Under the pieces are notes generated by a model. The model was given only the letters and a program-made list of their open reading frames with translations. It was not told the origin of the DNA and searched no databases. A stretch of 64,000 nt of DNA from contig CAIULL010000121.1 in NCBI GenBank assembly GCA_903899985.1, forward strand, positions 1-64,000. The letters are read 5' to 3'. The translations under genes and the position numbers were made by a program. Shown piece by piece: positions 1-6,973 of this stretch; positions within the stretch are counted from its first letter, which is position 1; each line of letters opens with the position of its first letter. The DNA is from an uncultured Schlesneria sp. Its GTDB lineage: Bacteria; Planctomycetota; Planctomycetia; Planctomycetales; Planctomycetaceae.

Positions 1-392
1 GGGCAAGCGTTTGCAATCGTCTCGGTTCGTCTCTGGTCGTCTCCAATCTTCTGCAGCAGCACCTTTCGGTATCTGATTTTAGAAAAACTGGCAATACTGA
101 AGCTCGCCACCCAACTGTCTCGATGCCTGCAATCGGAGATGTCATGCAGAATCCTCGTTCGGCGAACCGAAATCTACATTCTTTCCTCAAGCGGTTTTTG
201 CGTAACGTGTGCAAGAAAGAATGTGTGTTAGGTCAGTGAGTTCAAGTGTATACAGAGAAACTCAAAATCGGCGGTAGGACCCGTTGACGCCACGGGGTTG
301 AAGAGATTCCCTATTAAATCTTCGCGACGTTCGCTTGTATCGCGTTCTGAGCCTCTCGCGTGACTCATTGGACATCAAACAACCCGATAGCG
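1..392. other. Left-edge stretch with no recognisable gene
   Basis: I see no convincing coding region in these bases. A minus-strand frame stays open from about 232 to the window edge, but its translation from the possible ATG at 145 is low-complexity and matches nothing I know. The first 50 bases hold a loose run of CGTCT-type pentamers that I could not relate to any feature. The stretch lies downstream of the minus-strand gene ending at 393, so a continuation of the integrated element (integrase, other attachment end) may begin just outside the window. Confidence 0.4.
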
Positions 393-662
393 TTACGCGT
401 GCGTTAGTTTCATTATCTCGAATTCGCCACAGAAGCTATCACCTTGAACAATTGGCAGCATCCAGTTGCGGTGATCCCTGTTGCCATCGTCGAGTACATT
501 CATAAACCGATGGTGTTGAATAGGTGGTTTTAAATGGCATTCGTAAAGTTCGACTGGCTTCCGATCAACTCCAACGTCATTGTGAGCGAACACTGCAAAC
601 CGGCAGATGTCACATCGGTCAGGCGTTGCATTCATTCCGCTGCCCCTTTGGTTGCTGTTCAT
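393..662 (-). CDS. Small Cys/His-containing protein of the integrated element
   Basis: An 89-residue product of unknown function. Its start codon overlaps the stop of the PrimPol-helicase gene by four bases (ATGA type), which argues for translational coupling and for this being a real gene. The N-terminal third has a CDIC motif (residues 18-21), then a single Cys in YECHLKPP and another in the C-terminal DSFCGEF segment. Together these suggest a four-Cys treble-clef or zinc-ribbon-like fold. Small Cys4 proteins of this kind sit near replication genes in many phage-like elements. No homologue is recognised by eye, so no function is assigned. Confidence 0.6.
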   Translation of the reverse strand: MNSNQRGSGMNATPDRCDICRFAVFAHNDVGVDRKPVELYECHLKPPIQHHRFMNVLDDGNRDHRNWMLPIVQGDSFCGEFEIMKLTHA

Positions 663-3157
663 GCTTTCGATCCTCCAAACATAGAATCCACTGAGTCAAA
701 GTTAACTGCGGTTTCACTAGCAACTCCTGCCACATCCACACTACCAGCACAGTGCGACACTGCGACAACCCCTTTAGGGTGGTTGTCGCAGTGTGTGGCC
801 TCCACTGTGACAGACTGATTCTGTCGCAGTGCTGTCACAGTGTTGTCACAGTCTGTCGCAGTGGTTGTGGTTACTGCTGTTACTAATCGAAATCCAGGAT
901 AGGTCTGCTTGTTCTTCTTAGTTATTTCGCAGGCTTCAACCTTACCGTCTTCCAATAGCTTTTCGTTCGCCGCTCCACAGTCCGTACCATTCAATCTGGC
1001 TTTGGTCCCGTAGAATCGTTCCGTCTCGCCTTCTGGATACTTCTGATAAGCTTTCAGCAACTTGGCGGTATCAGCTTCGAGCTTCTTAGCCGCCTTGGCT
1101 TGTGCCCGTTGTTCCTTTGCGGCTTCACCCTGTTGTATGTTCTCGGCAACGACAGCCGATGCCCCATCAACCGAAACTTCCCACCGTCGCCCGCCTTGAT
1201 CCTTTCTTGATCCCTCTTCGATGTTCACGCCACACAAAACCGAATGACCAGCAGAGCCACCGACCGACAACCACAGGCGATGTGAGCCAGCGTTTTCGGG
1301 GTTGTACGCTTCACGCCTACCCAACAAAATCCACTGGCGTGCCCACTCTTGGAAACCAGACCACGCGATAGACTCCAGCTCTGGCGGGTTGAATTGGTTT
1401 TCTTTTGGTGCTTTCCGATTGTGGTGAACGATGATGATTGTGCATCCGGTTTCGCGTCCTACCTCGGTCAGTTCGAACAGCTTCTTACCGACTGAAAACA
1501 GGTTGCCCGCATCATCGCCCAGGTCGAGACATAAATAGGCGGGGTCAACAATCAGGACTTCAAGCCGATTGTCTTTGACGAATTTCGACAAACTGGCTTT
1601 CGTCCGTGGTTGTCCAAGTCTCGGCAATGCAAACGACCAAAGAGCGTTTGAATAGTCGCCAAAGTTAATCCAGGGCTTTGACCGTGCAATCCTTCGGCAA
1701 GTCTCTTGAATAACTGCATCACCACTTTCGCCCGACATCATCGCCACGCGAACGGGTCGGGGAACATAGTACTTGTTCAGAAACTTCGCACCACTGGCGA
1801 GACTCAAAGTCAGGTCGATTGCAATCGTGGTTTTCAGACTCTTCTTTGATGCTGCGATAATGCAAGGCTGACCAGCCGCGAGGATATCATCAACCAGATA
1901 TTCCGTGTGGAGTTCTACTGCGTCGAGTTGTTCCGATGTCATCGTCTCGAATGTCTCGACTTCAGAGCCGAGAACAATCGTATTGACGTTCGAAGAAACA
2001 AAACTCAACACGTCGTTAAGGTCCCGTCCCTCGCTCAGTCTTTTCAACCCCTGCTGCAAAACCTGTCTCAAGACTTGTTCTTGTCTCGGATCGGTTTGAG
2101 CCGGTTTAACCGCTTCCGCTGAAAAGGTGGAAGAGTCTTCCACTGTTTGAACCGTTCCCAAAATCGCTTCGCCTGTCGCCTGCTCCGAATCATCAAGCGG
2201 GTCGAACCTCGGAACGTCACCTGCTGGCAACTGTTCACGGTCAGCCATCGGGACTACCTCCGATTTCATCGCCCCGTCGATCTTGTGCCACAATTCAGCA
2301 TCTGACCAGGGCGGGACGCATTTTAAATTCCAAGGTTGCAGAACGTCGAAGGTGTCTTCACGGTTCAACCTGAATCCCAAAACCTTCTTCACGACAATGA
2401 ACGTGTCCCGGCTTCCGTCCTGACCGGAAACCGCTCCTGGTATTGGTGCCAAGTATGTTGAAGCCCGTTTGATTTGACGTTCACGGTCAGGGGTCAACGG
2501 TTGCTGTGGCTGTGCTTGAACCTTGACCGGCTTCACAACCTCGGGAACCCATTTCGCGAGCGTGGTCATCAGTGCGGTTAATGGTCCCTGTCGTTCCCGT
2601 ACATCGTCTGGCGTGCCGTGTACCCTTTGTCCTGTCACCGTAAAGAAACGGCCCTTCGAATAGACTTCAACCTTTCCGTCTCCCTCAGGACGTTTGAAGC
2701 CGCTTCGACAACCTTCAGGTAGTACGCCACGAACGAAGATCTTGACGCCCGTCCCACTTGGCGAGACTTCGGTGTATGTCTTCAAAATGTCGATGAAGTC
2801 TAAAGCCCATCCCGCCAGCTTTCCCGTTGCCGGGTCTCGGCAATCGTCCAGGTCGATACCAATTAGATCATCACTTCCATCGAATACGAAACCGATTCCA
2901 AGTCCGTTCTGTTCTGCTGACGCGACGGCCGTAGAAAAATCGGTCCAGGTGTTCGCATCGGTCGAAGAGGCATTTCGTAAAGGATGGTTCGCCTGCTTTA
3001 GTGGCTTCGTCCACTTCCCCGCCTTCTTTTCCCAAGCCCAACAAACCCAACGATCTGGCGTCGTCAGTGTCTCGGGTATTCCTTCGACGTTGAAATTGTG
3101 AACAGGTTTCACGTCGGACGATAGAACCTCTTGTCGTGCTGTTTTGGTTTCCGTCAT
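659..3157 (-). CDS. PrimPol-helicase fusion replication protein of the integrated element
   Basis: Residues 30-200 resemble the archaeo-eukaryotic primase/polymerase fold of phage NrS-1-type and bifunctional primase proteins: a metal-binding DLDDC at 102-106, SPSGTGVKIF at 132-141 and EVYSKGRFFTVTG at 164-176. Residues 226-297 look like the helical primase C-terminal linker. Residues 410-620 are a RepA-like hexameric helicase (AAA_25 type), with a variant Walker A ASKKSLKT at 436-443, Walker B-like LIVDPAY near 535-541 and a sensor-like IIIVHHN at 574-580. A basic winged-helix-like segment follows. The last ~80 residues are Thr/Val/Asp-rich and appear shaped by DNA repeats (750-863). The gene overlaps its neighbours on both sides by four bases. 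It probably primes and unwinds the element's own DNA. Domain assignment is by motif, not by search. Confidence 0.85.
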   Translation of the reverse strand: MTETKTARQEVLSSDVKPVHNFNVEGIPETLTTPDRWVCWAWEKKAGKWTKPLKQANHPLRNASSTDANTWTDFSTAVASAEQNGLGIGFVFDGSDDLIGIDLDDCRDPATGKLAGWALDFIDILKTYTEVSPSGTGVKIFVRGVLPEGCRSGFKRPEGDGKVEVYSKGRFFTVTGQRVHGTPDDVRERQGPLTALMTTLAKWVPEVVKPVKVQAQPQQPLTPDRERQIKRASTYLAPIPGAVSGQDGSRDTFIVVKKVLGFRLNREDTFDVLQPWNLKCVPPWSDAELWHKIDGAMKSEVVPMADREQLPAGDVPRFDPLDDSEQATGEAILGTVQTVEDSSTFSAEAVKPAQTDPRQEQVLRQVLQQGLKRLSEGRDLNDVLSFVSSNVNTIVLGSEVETFETMTSEQLDAVELHTEYLVDDILAAGQPCIIAASKKSLKTTIAIDLTLSLASGAKFLNKYYVPRPVRVAMMSGESGDAVIQETCRRIARSKPWINFGDYSNALWSFALPRLGQPRTKASLSKFVKDNRLEVLIVDPAYLCLDLGDDAGNLFSVGKKLFELTEVGRETGCTIIIVHHNRKAPKENQFNPPELESIAWSGFQEWARQWILLGRREAYNPENAGSHRLWLSVGGSAGHSVLCGVNIEEGSRKDQGGRRWEVSVDGASAVVAENIQQGEAAKEQRAQAKAAKKLEADTAKLLKAYQKYPEGETERFYGTKARLNGTDCGAANEKLLEDGKVEACEITKKNKQTYPGFRLVTAVTTTTATDCDNTVTALRQNQSVTVEATHCDNHPKGVVAVSHCAGSVDVAGVASETAVNFDSVDSMFGGSKA
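750..863. repeat. Iteron-like array in the 3' end of the replication gene
   Basis: The decamer TGTCRCAGTG occurs at 784-793, 822-831, 833-842, 844-853 (last base C) and 854-863. The last four are direct and spaced 11, 11 and 10 bases, close to one helical turn. The inverted form CACTGYGACA lies at 758-767 and 803-812, with a diverged copy at 750-759. Phased short repeats inside or beside a rep gene are characteristic of iteron replication origins, so this is a candidate origin recognised by the PrimPol-helicase. The encoded tail, rich in Thr, Val and Cys-Asp, looks like a by-product of the repeats. Confidence 0.65.
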
Positions 3158-3696
3158 ACATTCACCGCCGTTCTAAATTCTGGAATCTCGTGAAGGAACG
3201 GCGGGCAGACTTCGGAAACCTTGTCATCCGGGGCGGTGCAACATGCCCATTGAAGGAGATGATCGAACCACGATTCAATCAACTGGCGAACGGCTTCAAT
3301 TGACGGTCGTTTGTCTCGCTCGATCAGCTTTTCAATCCCGCTTCGGGTTGTCGCTACTGACTGCATCTGCCCACGACAGAAACGGGAAAGACATTGTTCT
3401 TCTTCGGTGAATGTGGTTTGCGTTGCCTTTCGGCCCGCTCGCTTACGTGCTGCGCTCATCGCATTGTTGCCAGCTCGCCAGCGAAGTTTTTGGGCGGCGT
3501 CTTCGCGCTTGCGGAGTCCCTTCAGAAATTCCGTGAGCGTCTTCGATCCGCCAGCCAGCTTGATAGCCGCATGGGCTTCGACCAAAAAACCTTTTCGATA
3601 ATTTGCCTCGCGGTCAGGATCGTTTCCCCAATAAGGGATGGTTGTATCGTAGTCGGTTAATGCTTTGGGGTTGACTTTGTCTACTACATTTGTCAT
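3154..3696 (-). CDS. Unknown protein of the integrated element
   Basis: A 180-residue product that I do not recognise. It overlaps the start of the PrimPol-helicase by four bases and so is very likely co-transcribed and co-translated with it. The middle (about residues 60-110) is strongly basic, with KLRWRAGNN and RKRAGRKAT segments that could bind DNA. The C-terminal third is predicted helical and contains a CC pair and CPPF. It shows no signal peptide or membrane segment. A replication accessory or regulatory role is possible from context only. Confidence 0.6.
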   Translation of the reverse strand: MTNVVDKVNPKALTDYDTTIPYWGNDPDREANYRKGFLVEAHAAIKLAGGSKTLTEFLKGLRKREDAAQKLRWRAGNNAMSAARKRAGRKATQTTFTEEEQCLSRFCRGQMQSVATTRSGIEKLIERDKRPSIEAVRQLIESWFDHLLQWACCTAPDDKVSEVCPPFLHEIPEFRTAVNV

Positions 3697-3741
3697 AATT
3701 TTGGTCCGTGCAAAGTGACGGTTTGTGCGGTGTGATATTCG

Positions 3742-3779
3742 ACGCCTCGCTTGGTTTCCCTCCAGGCGAGGCGTTTTTT
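3742..3779 (+). terminator. Terminator-like hairpin pointing right
   Basis: A perfect nine-base stem (3742-3750 with 3765-3773, ACGCCTCGC) around a 14-base loop is followed by six T on the plus strand. It lies in the gap between the prohead protease gene (stop at 3790) and the next minus-strand gene. Its T-run is on the strand opposite to the genes, so it would stop transcription entering from the left. On the minus strand the hairpin is preceded by A-run and lacks a following T-run. Confidence 0.55.
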
Positions 3780-3789
3780 GTTAGACGGC

Positions 3790-4650
3790 CTACGCCTTCT
3801 GTTTCCAGGTAGACGCAACCTCTCTGGTCAGCTTCTTCATCGGATCAATCGCACTCGGATTGCTGCGTGCAAATTGGACGGAAGTTGTCGAGTCAGCCCC
3901 GTAGGGAAGAATCGCGATTCCGCTAATCGCCCATTGCCTGAAAACGGTTCCCGGTCCATCGAAGTCAATGCCGTTGACGTTGACTGCTTGCCCCTCTGGC
4001 ACCTGCTGAGTCTGAAGCGTGGATGGGTCAATTGTGACAGAGGCTTGGAATGGTACGCCCTTTGAGCCTTGGAAGATGATCTCACTGGCCTTGTCGTCAG
4101 TCGTGAACGGAATTAGTCGTCCCTGAGCCACTAATTGGCCATCGACGACAGATACCGAATCCGCAACCCCTAAAACACAGTCAGTGTGGTTGTAATCAAG
4201 GGGGATCGCGCCCGATGGTGGTATAAACCCGCTCATGTCGTTGACGACTCGGCCCCAATAACCTTGATAGGCTGTAGAGCTTGTTCGGGCAACAATCGTG
4301 ATCGGCTTTGGAGACAGTGAGCCGGTTTCGGGTGGCGATTGGGTCATCGAAACATCAGCGCCAAAATTGACCGAATTTTTCGGCAGTCTGATCGTTCCTT
4401 TTGCCTGTGCGTCTTGCATCGCTGCAAACAGCCGACCTGCAAACTTCTGGATCAGTGGTCCATCTTTGACGGCAATGTCGCCACCCGCAAAACAAGCCTT
4501 CCCAGGCTGGGGAATCAGTTTACTTAACAACTCAAAATTTGACTTGACGTCATGCGGTAGCGCGGGTGGCGAGTTGGCCAATGCGAACTGTGCGTTGCTC
4601 ATGAGGGTTGAGACTTCAGGACCAGAAAACACTTTTTGATCTTGTTGCAT
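3790..4650 (-). CDS. HK97-like phage prohead protease homologue
   Basis: A 286-residue protein whose middle (about 115-230) resembles the U35/S78-type prohead maturation proteases. It has LDYNHTD with His155, a VxDGQLVAQGRL strand pair, then GVPFQASVTID with Ser204. The 49-residue His-to-Ser spacing and the small-residue context around the serine fit the family, whose members cleave scaffold and capsid proteins inside the prohead. The ~100-residue N-terminal extension and the C-terminal tail are not recognised. No portal, major capsid or terminase gene lies nearby. The encoded protein may process a capsid made by genes outside the window, by a helper phage, or may have another role. The start codon has an A-rich leader rather than a clear Shine-Dalgarno. 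Confidence 0.65.
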   Translation of the reverse strand: MQQDQKVFSGPEVSTLMSNAQFALANSPPALPHDVKSNFELLSKLIPQPGKACFAGGDIAVKDGPLIQKFAGRLFAAMQDAQAKGTIRLPKNSVNFGADVSMTQSPPETGSLSPKPITIVARTSSTAYQGYWGRVVNDMSGFIPPSGAIPLDYNHTDCVLGVADSVSVVDGQLVAQGRLIPFTTDDKASEIIFQGSKGVPFQASVTIDPSTLQTQQVPEGQAVNVNGIDFDGPGTVFRQWAISGIAILPYGADSTTSVQFARSNPSAIDPMKKLTREVASTWKQKA

Positions 4651-4705
4651 TTATAAATCTTTCGAATTGAGTGAAAAATGAGTTAATCGCGAACGGTTGA
4701 TGTCT

Positions 4706-5263
4706 TCAGACAGACAAGAGCTTTTCCCGTGATCGTTCCATTTGAGCGTCAATTCGCTCAATAGCGGCCTCGTTCTCTTGAATCATTTTTCGACTCGCTT
4801 CCATCAGTGCCCCGTAGTCGTTAACGAGTGCGATGTTCTTCAGGTACTCAGGATGATTCAAAATCGCAGCGCGAGGCGCTGCCCCGCGTCCGCCATGCGG
4901 TAAATCAGCAAAGCCAGCCTCAATCAGAGCTTTACCAATACGAGATTCGATAGGCTCCTGATTATTCGCCGCCTCGTTGTAAAGCTTCAGGTATCCCGGA
5001 ATAACCCGGTTAGACCAGAAGTCGCCCAACTGACAGCGCAGTTCCCTTGCTCGCGTCCTGATTGTGTCAATTCCACCTCTCCAGGCGGTAGCCTCTTTGG
5101 CGATGTTTCCAGGCTTTGTTTTCAGAGCTTGGCGTTTTTCATGGCTTGCCTGAACGTCGTCCTCAATCGCGTAATTCAGGGCCGAGAATTCCTCATTGGC
5201 TTGCTGCACGTCTGGCGGCAGTCTGTTGTCAACGGGTGCGAATCGGATCGGCTCAAAATTCAT
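4706..5263 (-). CDS. Unknown helical protein of the integrated element
   Basis: The start is placed at the ATG at 5263 (MNFEPIRF), which has a GGAG nine bases upstream; a TTG 15 bases further upstream is the alternative. The 185-residue product is mostly charged and helical. Residues 20-60 and the last 50 (ending IERIDAQMERSREKL) look coiled-coil, with a glycine/alanine-rich turn (HGGRGAAPRAA) between them. No signal peptide or membrane segment is seen. It sits directly upstream of the prohead protease in the transcription unit, where phages often place scaffold-type proteins, but that role is only a guess. I do not recognise the family. Confidence 0.55.
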   Translation of the reverse strand: MNFEPIRFAPVDNRLPPDVQQANEEFSALNYAIEDDVQASHEKRQALKTKPGNIAKEATAWRGGIDTIRTRARELRCQLGDFWSNRVIPGYLKLYNEAANNQEPIESRIGKALIEAGFADLPHGGRGAAPRAAILNHPEYLKNIALVNDYGALMEASRKMIQENEAAIERIDAQMERSREKLLSV

Positions 5264-5356
5264 TTTCCAGGTCTCCAAACAAGAGTGTGTCGTTCATGCG
5301 TCTGGTCAACGTTTGACCGCGTCCGCATTGATGAGGCAGATACTACTTGCCCGGAC

Positions 5357-6166
5357 TCACGATTTTTTCACGTCGCCAAAAGATTTTTTCGTGAATTTTT
5401 TGTGAGGAAACTTCTTCAAGAACTCTCCTCTCTTTTTAAGCGACCATGTGGAATCGAGTTGACTCAAGGCTATGTTTGCCCACGTGAGATGATTTGCGAA
5501 CGCACCTGCAGTCTGATCGTCGATAGGCCCCCACATTGAATCAGACACATGGTCGATCTGAGCGGACTCACGATTCCACATATATTTGAGTAGTGCGTAA
5601 GCCATCGGCTTTACTTCAGCTGTCTTTCCATCAAGCCAGATGGTTGAAGGGTCATAGAAGCCATCTGGTTTGATCGGCGAAGGTTTTTCGATTGCTGGCG
5701 TGGCGACAACAGGCTTGGGTGTCGGCATTACCAATGAGTGCGCAAACGCCGCAACCCCTGCCGGAATTGCCCCGTATTGGCCACCGGGTAACCCATCGAA
5801 CGCAATCTGCCATTCGTCGGGGTCGGATGCCAAGAGTCTGTCGCGGTCCAGGTCAAGGCTACGCGCCAGCTTGCGAACCAGGGATTGAGTCAGTTCGACC
5901 AGTTCGGCAATTATCGCCCGGTCGGCATTGGGTAACATTGCCAGCCGCTGCAAGGCCGTGAAGCAATTTTTTGCGGTCGCCTTAGAAAGCGGGGTCGTCA
6001 GGTCGTCAACTGCTCGTGTTGATCGCTTGACCGACTCCAGGTACTTGCCCAGGCGGGTGGCTACCTCTGATTGTGGCAGCGGTTCCACCGTGTACGCCGC
6101 ATCGGGCGAATCCGATTCCGGTAAACTGGCTACGGTCCAAAGCCCGTTTTTTAATTTTATAGTCAT
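5357..6166 (-). CDS. Unknown protein of the integrated element
   Basis: The start is placed at ATG 6166 (MTIKLKNGLW), eight bases after an AGGGG; an upstream in-frame ATG at 6199 lies inside the terminator hairpin and is less likely. The ~269-residue product has a mixed N-terminal part, a helical middle, a Pro-rich linker (about PTPKPVV to PSPIKPDG) and a C-terminal segment with WLDGKTAEVKPMAYALLKYMWNR and a very basic end (KKFPHKKFTKK), which may be a winged-helix-like DNA-binding region. I recognise no family. It follows the excisionase gene after an intrinsic terminator, so it may have its own promoter. Confidence 0.55.
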   Translation of the reverse strand: MTIKLKNGLWTVASLPESDSPDAAYTVEPLPQSEVATRLGKYLESVKRSTRAVDDLTTPLSKATAKNCFTALQRLAMLPNADRAIIAELVELTQSLVRKLARSLDLDRDRLLASDPDEWQIAFDGLPGGQYGAIPAGVAAFAHSLVMPTPKPVVATPAIEKPSPIKPDGFYDPSTIWLDGKTAEVKPMAYALLKYMWNRESAQIDHVSDSMWGPIDDQTAGAFANHLTWANIALSQLDSTWSLKKRGEFLKKFPHKKFTKKSFGDVKKS

Positions 6167-6197
6167 GCTGGCTACCCCTGCCAATTGGTGACGATTC

Positions 6198-6249
6198 AAA
6201 AAAAGATCTCGCGGGAAAGCCGATTCAATTTCGGTCTAACCCGCGAGAT
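6198..6249 (-). terminator. Intrinsic terminator after the excisionase-like gene
   Basis: A perfect ten-base GC-rich stem (ATCTCGCGGG at 6206-6215 pairing with 6240-6249) is followed, on the minus strand, by seven T (6198-6204 read as A on the plus strand). It lies 12 bases past the stop of the HTH gene at 6261. It would separate that gene from the rest of the element transcript. Confidence 0.75.
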
Positions 6250-6260
6250 TTCGAGATTTT

Positions 6261-6482
6261 TCAGGCAGCGGTTCCGCTGCCATCTTGAGCCGCCAGATAT
6301 TCTTCAATGGCCCAAACAGGAACCAGACGCGATTTTCCGATCTTCAACGATTTTAATTGCCCCGATGAAATCAATCCGTAAACGAACGTCCGGCCAAGCC
6401 CCAGGTAGTGACACGCCCCGTCAACCTTCAAATTTTGCTTTTTGCGTAGCTCCGGAATGTCCAAACTCTTCTTCGCTTCCAT
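6261..6482 (-). CDS. Excisionase-family helix-turn-helix protein
   Basis: A 73-residue MerR-like/excisionase-type DNA-binding protein. The core shows the family pattern: a helix with DGACHYLGLGRTFVYGLI, then the wing SGQLKSLKIGKSRLVP and the terminal helix VWAIEEYLA. Proteins of this family bind attachment sites and direct excision by tyrosine integrases, or act as regulators. The gene is preceded by AGGGG eight bases before ATG and lies closest to the tRNA gene, the usual place for xis near an attachment site. It is separated from the rest of the cluster by a strong terminator, so it may be expressed independently. The integrase partner is not in the window. Confidence 0.8.
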   Translation of the reverse strand: MEAKKSLDIPELRKKQNLKVDGACHYLGLGRTFVYGLISSGQLKSLKIGKSRLVPVWAIEEYLAAQDGSGTAA

Positions 6483-6625
6483 GCTCCCGACCCCTAGATG
6501 ATGTGTCTGATTGCATTGTCAACCACAATAGGTTGTCATTGTTCGCCAATACTCGTATTTGATTCGAGCCGAGGCAATAGATCTTTTCCGGAATTTTTCC
6601 AGGTGGGTGGGGATACCCATGAAAA

Positions 6626-6665
6626 GCACAAAACCACGCTCCTGATTTGGAACGTGGTTTTGTGC
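6626..6665. repeat. 13-bp perfect inverted repeat between tRNA-Leu and the excisionase gene
   Basis: GCACAAAACCACG at 6626-6638 is the exact inverse of 6653-6665, around a 14-base centre. It lies between the tRNA 3' end and the HTH gene. It could be an arm-type binding site for integrase or excisionase, an operator, or a terminator for the tRNA transcript (minus strand). The following minus-strand bases are not a clean T-run, so a protein-binding role is at least as likely. Confidence 0.5.
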
Positions 6666-6739
6666 GAGAAAATAACGGCTTGTTGGTATAAGGTTGGTAT
6701 TTGACGCGAATTCAGTTTTGAAAAATCGCCATAAGTCAT

Positions 6740-6825
6740 TAGCCGAGGCGGGGCTCGAACCCGCACGTCCTGTTACGGACACAGGATTTTAAGTCCTGTG
6801 CGTCTGCCTGTTTCGCCACTCGGCC
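6740..6825 (-). tRNA. tRNA-Leu (anticodon UAA)
   Basis: The minus strand folds as a class II tRNA. The acceptor is GGCCGAG pairing with CUCGGCU (first pair G-U) with discriminator A, and the D-arm contains GGCAGACGC. The anticodon stem-loop is CAGGA-CUUAAAA-UCCUG with anticodon UAA; a variable arm and a T-arm GCGGG-UUCGAGC-CCCGC follow. The long variable arm and the anticodon identify leucine. CCA is not encoded. The 3' end points at the integrated element, a common arrangement when the tRNA end serves as attachment site. Confidence 0.95.
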
Positions 6826-6973
6826 ATTTCGAGCCACGGATTGTGGCGTGGTTGGCTTCTCACTGCAAGACTGCGAGTTGTCGGGAATCTCGGATTCCGC
6901 GGAAGTTGGTGTGGAAATTGACCGGGAGATGCCAAAAAGTTGAAGGCGTGACCCATGAATCACAGGGAAAGAT

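Follow-up and report, generated by a model that had tools for sequence, protein, structure and literature searches.

A tRNA-Leu-integrated element in an uncultured Schlesneria carries a lone capsid maturation protease and may be a phage satellite

What kind of mobile element copies itself with its own replication protein and yet keeps, of all the genes for a phage shell, only the one for a maturation protease? The question is raised by the first kilobases of the window, the 64,000-nucleotide stretch of contig C121 analysed here from an uncultured Schlesneria sp. A sequence-only reading had placed a compact element between position 393 and a tRNA-Leu and had proposed a phage satellite or an integrative plasmid. 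The seven open reading frames have the coordinates which that reading gave. All are encoded on the minus strand with little space between them, and ATGA-type overlaps occur at 659-662 and 3154-3157; the tRNA-Leu was located beside them (Table 1).

Table 1. Features of the element and its border in the window.
Feature	Position	Strand	Remark
End of contig C121; element continues on C293:1-7876 (integrase, GNAT gene, cargo)	1-392		
89-aa cysteine-containing small protein	393-662	-	putative
NrS-1-type primase-polymerase fused to AAA_25 (RepA-like) helicase, 832 aa	659-3157	-	
180-aa protein	3154-3696	-	92% identical counterpart in sister element E2
HK97/herpes-type capsid maturation protease, 286 aa	3790-4650	-	phrog_3244 match, 2e-8
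190-aa, mostly helical protein	4706-5278	-	low-confidence structure model
280-aa protein, C-terminus winged-helix-like (by eye)	5357-6199	-	no family match
Excisionase/AlpA-type helix-turn-helix protein, 73 aa	6261-6482	-	HTH_17, 1.5e-10; TIGR01764 (excise), 1.1e-9
Hairpin resembling a terminator (17-bp inverted repeat around a 6-nt loop), located between tRNA and excisionase gene	6626-6665		putative function
Attachment-site direct repeat (attL/attR copy): tRNA-Leu 3' half plus 11 bp	6728-6794	-	67 bp, 100% identical
tRNA-Leu (anticodon taa), the integration target, whose 3' end the element restores	6739-6826	-	

The left edge of the element had been set at position 393, and this was not borne out: contig C121 ends at window base 1, and the opposite end of the element was found on another contig of the genome, C293. 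There, the second copy of the 67-bp repeat (C293:7810-7876) adjoins a tyrosine integrase (C293:6484-7680), so that both an integrase and a repeat of the tRNA 3' end, which the earlier reading had proposed to look for on the left, were found. The length of the repeat, its exact identity, its reach of 11 bp beyond the tRNA 3' end and the fact that the copy on C293 is not an intact tRNA put the match far beyond chance. The cargo on C293 includes the GNAT gene and membrane-like ORFs. An overlap of C293:1 with window base 1 was sought in the sequence and none was found; the join is unassembled and a gap may lie within it.

The earlier reading had also proposed a comparison with related strains. In one genome of the same genus (G144, locus L163), the chromosomal sequences that border the element on C293 and in the window lie next to each other around an intact tRNA-Leu, and the element is absent. 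The flank genes there (91-99% protein identity) are followed by some 1.9 kb of different DNA, then by the intact tRNA and its identical copy of the 67 bp (L163:8527-8593), then by an amidohydrolase; the site is thus free of the element, though not of all other DNA. Nine further loci of the same genus were compared, and none offered a cleaner empty site. Another genome of the genus (G142, locus L164) has ParA and a giant helicase/methylase-like ORF on the flanks of the same tRNA-Leu. Given the repeat beside the integrase on C293 and the neighbouring flanks in the element-free relative, the integrated element measures 14.7 kb or more (C293:1-7876 and window 1-6794 together). By sequence, this is an integrated mobile element with its own integrase and attachment repeat and with an element-free site in a genome of the same genus.

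The replication protein is of the kind that had been proposed, an NrS-1-type N-terminus joined to an AAA_25 helicase. Its N-terminus matched the structures of NrS-1 polymerase (PDB 6a9w and 7rr4) at 1e-20 to 1e-21, indicating a homologous AEP/PrimPol domain; the metal motif IDLD is present, and SGTGVK stands at the motif-II position where NrS-1 has SGDGLH. In the annotated collections searched, the best matches of the N-terminus were haloarchaeal plasmid proteins (47-48% identity), with phages at about 40%, and a viral scan with a two-row alignment found no relatives. About 350 N-terminal residues are nearly identical to those of a sister element, E2, which is integrated at a tRNA-Arg, whereas the helicase part differs and is related to a phage ORF in locus L145. 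E2 has this replication module in common with the window element and lacks the protease. It carries a 675-aa tape-measure-like ORF, near which no tail genes were recognised.

The 73-aa protein does match excisionase profiles, as had been claimed. The 89-aa protein, possibly a zinc ribbon, corresponds in position to a 114-aa Cys-rich ORF in E2. Beyond E2, the 180-aa protein had no clear relative among 170 genomes of the family, nor any in a single-sequence viral scan. For the 190-aa protein, a distant homologue (28%) was found in E2 (C170:21380-21982) and none in the two-row viral scan, and its structure model is too poor for interpretation. No phage matches were found for the 280-aa protein; its weak similarity (E = 0.002 in a two-sequence test) to a 307-aa protein of an element in a second planctomycete (L035) is only suggestive of kinship.

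The assignment of the 286-aa protein as a prohead protease homologue was confirmed by its profile match. It consists of a new N-terminus of 85 aa and a core at about residues 115-262, and it lacks the scaffold-like C-terminal tail that its phage relatives and the L035 protease possess. His155, Ser204 and Asp253 are the same in all 35 sequences compared, the window protease among them, although the latter departs at positions that hardly vary among phages (H129 to Q, H137 to N, C248 to L). In the structure model, the core has a pLDDT above 90, and Foldseek related it to herpesvirus maturation proteases with a probability of 1.00 but low TM-scores. By its predicted fold and catalytic residues, the 286-aa protein is a genuine maturation protease of the HK97/herpes type. 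Matches of the single sequence to pteridine reductases were judged to be chance. A single-sequence viral scan found no relatives of the protease; a profile (A4) afterwards found 79. In nearly all of these IMG/VR contigs, the related gene adjoins a portal gene, a capsid gene or both, and the contigs, together with six planctomycete phage loci (L032-L034, L036-L038), make up the source group, planctomycete phages with a terminase-portal-protease-MCP cassette. The window protease is 30-45% identical to the proteases of this group and has no close orthologue. The L035 element, 12.7 kb between 55-bp tRNA-Leu repeats, also has its own integrase and a lone protease, which sits on another branch of the protease tree and thus seems to have been acquired independently.

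The earlier statement that portal, capsid and terminase genes are missing holds across the whole host genome (rated 99.97% complete) for the phage group of the protease, the profiles of which were those searched; these would not pick up capsid genes of an unrelated kind. A complete prophage of this group elsewhere in the genome was rejected on the same result, and the genome retains no fragments of the head genes that would neighbour the protease (portal, MCP). Neither a helper phage nor a packaging gene (TerS) nor a cos/pac site could be recognised. Among the element's proteins, Pfam and PHROGs recognised no relaxase, partition or transfer genes and gave no match to Psu-, Delta- or Sid-type genes in those scanned, which sets the element apart from P4-like satellites, and PADLOC found no known defence genes.

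cf-PICIs are satellites that carry phage-derived head genes, protease included. They possess a whole head module, whereas the element, scored for capsid, portal, connector and protease genes of its own, has the protease without portal or MCP. By definition, satellites are of 7-20 kb and carry an integrase and regulatory and replication genes but no structural genes (PMC13376191). The element has all three kinds of genes in at least 14.7 kb, counted across the assembly gap between two contigs, and lacks a complete virion structural module, as judged by the genome-wide absence of TerL, portal and MCP homologues and the gap aside. It resembles PICI and StCI satellites in its integrase, excisionase-type regulator, primase-helicase module, att repeats, size range and missing complete structural module (PMC13376191), and differs in its planctomycete host, its single maturation protease gene and the lack of a recognised capsid redirector or TerS. 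AH14b, the satellite of Pseudomonas phage AH14a, is 16.8 kb long, has an integrase, an AlpA-like regulator and a primase of a different type, relies on its helper for terminase and lysis functions and is packed into the helper capsid; no maturation protease appears among its genes in the portion of the account available (PMC4936722). Planctomycete phages with a related protease have head modules, unlike the element, and our literature search gave no paper describing a planctomycete satellite.

A life by parasitising a virus is suggested by the element's own integrase, tRNA site and replication protein, set against shell genes reduced to the protease. Judged by sequence, the satellite-like parts are in place, namely the integrase, excisionase-like HTH, tRNA-Leu att site, NrS-1-type primase-polymerase with helicase, and captured protease; the helper, the packaging and the function of the protease are what we infer. 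We give about an even chance to a phage-satellite-like island that uses its captured protease on the procapsid of a helper phage. When a planctomycete tailed phage with a related portal-protease-capsid cassette infects the host or is induced, the island would excise and copy its own DNA. The tail-less protease might then enter or compete in the helper procapsid and alter scaffold removal, and the resulting change in capsid size or timing would favour the shorter genome of the island and disfavour the helper. Points against this reading are the lack of an identified helper, TerS or cos/pac site, the PrimPol N-terminus, for which the best match in the annotated collections was to haloarchaeal plasmid proteins (48%), the changed near-invariant protease residues and the stretch between C293 and C121, which could hold more genes.

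The satellite-or-plasmid pair of the earlier reading was the right short list; integration is established, and satellite status is the conjectural part. An integrative, unpackaged plasmid-like element, replicated by its PrimPol and bearing the protease as anti-phage cargo that disturbs procapsid maturation of any infecting phage, is unlikely. The closer kinship of the PrimPol N-terminus to haloarchaeal plasmid proteins than to phages speaks for it, as do the GNAT and membrane-like cargo and the ParA beside the same tRNA-Leu in G142, by which plasmid-type elements may use the site; it is countered by the lack of recognised plasmid and defence genes and by a size and layout that fit satellites.

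Also unlikely, and slightly more so, is a decayed prophage, in which the protease here, like the tape-measure-like gene in E2, would be the last structural gene left. Structural-looking genes do remain singly, the E2 ORF without recognised tail genes near it, and the protease has lost its tail and some nearly invariant residues; yet every gene is intact, overlapping and co-directional, the attachment repeat, integrase and excisionase are whole, the replication module recurs in a second element at another tRNA, no portal or MCP remnants persist, and the protease retains its three catalytic positions and has a new N-terminus. That the island is a complete unusual phage, with other structural genes, unrelated to the protease's phage group, in the unassembled C293-C121 stretch, is very improbable. 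The join without detected overlap leaves room for it, but the near-complete genome, the unmatched terminase, portal and MCP profiles and a protease that, at 33-45% identity to the group, is expected to act on capsid proteins of that same group all weigh against it.

Returning to the satellite reading, single satellite proteins that act on helper capsid assembly are known: SaPI Ccm, CpmAB and Rcm, P4 Sid and PLE TcaP. CpmB and Rcm mimic the helper scaffold (PMC12409344), and Sid and TcaP serve as external scaffolds (PMC10945586). These redirectors are scaffold or capsid-protein mimics, whereas the candidate here is a protease, for which no such role was found in the literature searched. It is a doubtful extension that there is a family of planctomycete satellites hijacking helpers by a captured tail-less protease, through capsid redirection or interference, and that it arose at least twice, in the window element and in L035. 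If a satellite keeps only a maturation protease, proteolytic control of procapsid maturation may serve it as a strategy of hijacking or defence, which would be a way for satellites to act that the literature searched does not describe. With two elements whose proteases seem to be of separate origin, the idea would be directly testable on procapsids of the related phage group.

Searching the host genome (8.0 Mb in 296 contigs) with window bases 3001-6850 returned a 67-bp exact repeat on a second contig, C293; the window itself begins at base 1 of contig C121 (74,982 bases). The repeat spans the 3' half of tRNA-Leu(taa) plus 11 bp. The C293 copy holds no intact tRNA by ARAGORN and is directly adjoined by a 398-aa tyrosine integrase gene (phrog_1, 7.8e-78; Phage_integrase, 5e-21), so that both the integrase and the tRNA 3'-end repeat, which the sequence-only reading had proposed to look for left of the window, were recovered. 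In window orientation, C293 runs from the repeat through the integrase to base 1, and the window-side part of the element terminates in the intact tRNA-Leu. The pieces sum to 14,670 bases (7,876 + 6,794); no sequence overlap joins the C293 and C121 ends, and there may therefore be a gap between them. Next to the excisionase gene lie a pair of inverted repeats, a possible terminator and operator.

Coordinates of the tRNA-Leu element and of related features
Feature	Location	Remark
67-bp repeat, window copy	window 6728-6794
67-bp repeat, C293 copy	C293:7810-7876	opposite strand
tRNA-Leu(taa)	window 6739-6826
Integrase gene	C293:6484-7680
Inverted repeat	window 6626-6665	17-bp arms
Inverted repeat	window 6206-6249	10-bp arms, ATCTCGCGGG/CCCGCGAGAT
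Repeated ORF fragments	C293:14389-16449	66-89% similar; chromosomal end of C293, outside the element
Sister element(s) at tRNA-Arg(cct), same genome	C170:18066-28822 (L004/L005); C93:1-4635 (L144)
Second lone-protease element, 12.7 kb, at tRNA-Leu(gag)	L035:3932-16728	G008:C45 = JAKFUG010000051.1, Planctomycetaceae MAG
Second integrase ORF beside that element	L035:2442-4082	crosses left repeat

In a same-genus genome, G144, three genes flanking the C293 repeat (91-99% protein identity) lie on one contig with the amidohydrolase gene that sits right of tRNA-Leu in the window; C293 and C121 are therefore the two sides of one insertion. Between these flanks, G144 has an intact tRNA-Leu holding the identical 67 bp and about 1.9 kb of other DNA. 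As judged from sequence, the flanks are thus neighbours and the element is absent, although this is no clean empty site. In two further same-genus genomes, tRNA-Leu(taa) is flanked by ParA and a 1,954-aa helicase/methylase-like ORF (G142, L164) or lies beside a DnaB-like helicase/replication region (G148, L168), with functions assigned by eye. Given that these gene sets are unrelated to those of the element, integration in this genus seems to favour this tRNA gene as a hotspot.

The element is transcribed on the minus strand in the order excisionase-type HTH, p280, p190, protease, p180, primase-polymerase/helicase and p89, where the p-numbers give the lengths in aa of proteins without assigned function; its C293 part adds a GNAT acetyltransferase and ORFs without a family. 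The excisionase and PrimPol-helicase named from the sequence alone were both borne out. The primase-polymerase N-terminus matched solved structures of the NrS-1 phage polymerase (1e-20 to 1e-21) and carries the IDLD motif, with Lys at the motif-II position where NrS-1 has His. The helicase part is AAA_25; over its C-terminal stretch it shares 51% identity with an ORF from IMG/VR contig L145. Since NrS-1 polymerase is described in PMC8718748 and PMC7102993 as having both primase and polymerase activity, it is a fair inference by analogy that the element's replication protein is self-priming.

At tRNA-Arg(cct) of the same genome, C170 carries an adjoining integrase, p180 at 92% identity, a p190 homologue (28%) and a chimeric primase-polymerase, which shares the same ~350 N-terminal residues and differs in its helicase part. 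The replication module, being common to the tRNA-Leu and tRNA-Arg elements, is therefore mobile between elements. C170 terminates inside a 675-aa ORF, labelled tape-measure-like by eye only, for which neither a family nor a phage match was found; the start of C93 bears a second copy, 89% identical at the protein level. C93 also has a 39-bp exact repeat of the tRNA-Arg(cct) 5' half, which places the other boundary of a tRNA-Arg element there; possibly C170 and C93 carry a tandem pair of elements. No protease match was found in the C170 element, in contrast to the window element, to which the protease is, on sequence comparison, specific.

The 286-aa protease homologue was upheld by its match to phrog_3244 (head maturation protease) and by its catalytic residues: H155, S204 and D253 (window protein numbering) are invariant in 35 aligned sequences, and in the 74-sequence tree alignment S204, N226 and D253 are invariant and H155 is kept in 72. 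In its AlphaFold model, most of residues 111-250 form a core predicted with confidence (pLDDT >90); Foldseek matches of the model at E <0.001 were the pseudorabies virus maturation protease and then other herpesvirus proteases, with probability 1.00 but low TM-scores. Compared with its relatives, the window protease has an 85-aa N-terminal extension of low model confidence, has substitutions at three sites that hardly vary among the others (Q129, N137, L248) and lacks the scaffold-like tail kept in L035 and in phages.

Among the 170 family genomes searched, 34 encode relatives. Those of 330-470 aa sit in terminase-portal-protease-major capsid protein (MCP) cassettes, and those above 600 aa look, from their length, like protease-capsid fusions. 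Judging from L044-L052 and further relatives, protease and capsid protein seem to be joined in one ORF of ~550-760 aa in many phages or prophages of planctomycetes. Scanning IMG/VR with a protease profile gave 79 contigs, in nearly all of which portal and/or MCP directly adjoin it; in the remote exceptions, L130 and L132, none of the three profiles (terminase, portal, MCP) matched. A group-typical protease without any such match was found in the window and L035 only. Profiles for these head genes, built from the protease's phage group, gave nothing significant across the whole host genome (completeness 99.97%); the same alignments, as Python-built profiles, served as a positive control and match their targets in most of the IMG/VR contigs. 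The reported absence of portal, capsid and terminase thus extends genome-wide for this phage group and is limited to that type; unrelated head-gene types may remain.

The L035 element, likewise without a terminase, portal or MCP profile match, is bounded by two exact 55-bp copies of the tRNA-Leu(gag) 3' end. It has an integrase of its own, encoded next to the tRNA, as well as an M78 peptidase gene and the lone protease. The second integrase ORF there may belong to a neighbouring element. In the protease tree, the closest branch to the window sequence is that of phage contig L059 (support 0.955), whereas L035 falls with L036/L110 (0.65); from these separate branches, two independent captures of the protease are likely.

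Taken together, the sequence shows genes for integration, excision and replication, along with a protease that has kept its catalytic residues and stands apart from its usual genomic setting. It was considered under the satellite definition of PMC13376191. Known capsid redirectors are described in PMC10945586 and PMC12409344, and the AH14b satellite in PMC4936722. Within the open-access literature searched, no description turned up of a satellite that carries a maturation protease of prohead or capsid type, and, as far as titles and abstracts show, none of the papers deals with satellites of planctomycetes. That the primase-polymerase matches haloarchaeal plasmid proteins speaks for an integrative plasmid, a reading we consider rather unlikely; the isolation of the one structural gene would suit a decayed prophage, which we judge about equally unlikely.

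On the favoured reading, a phage-satellite-like island, the element would depend on a helper phage and excise upon its entry, and the protease would act on the helper procapsid. Because the protease lacks the scaffold-like tail, it could conceivably, and speculatively in either case, compete there or supply an additional protease.
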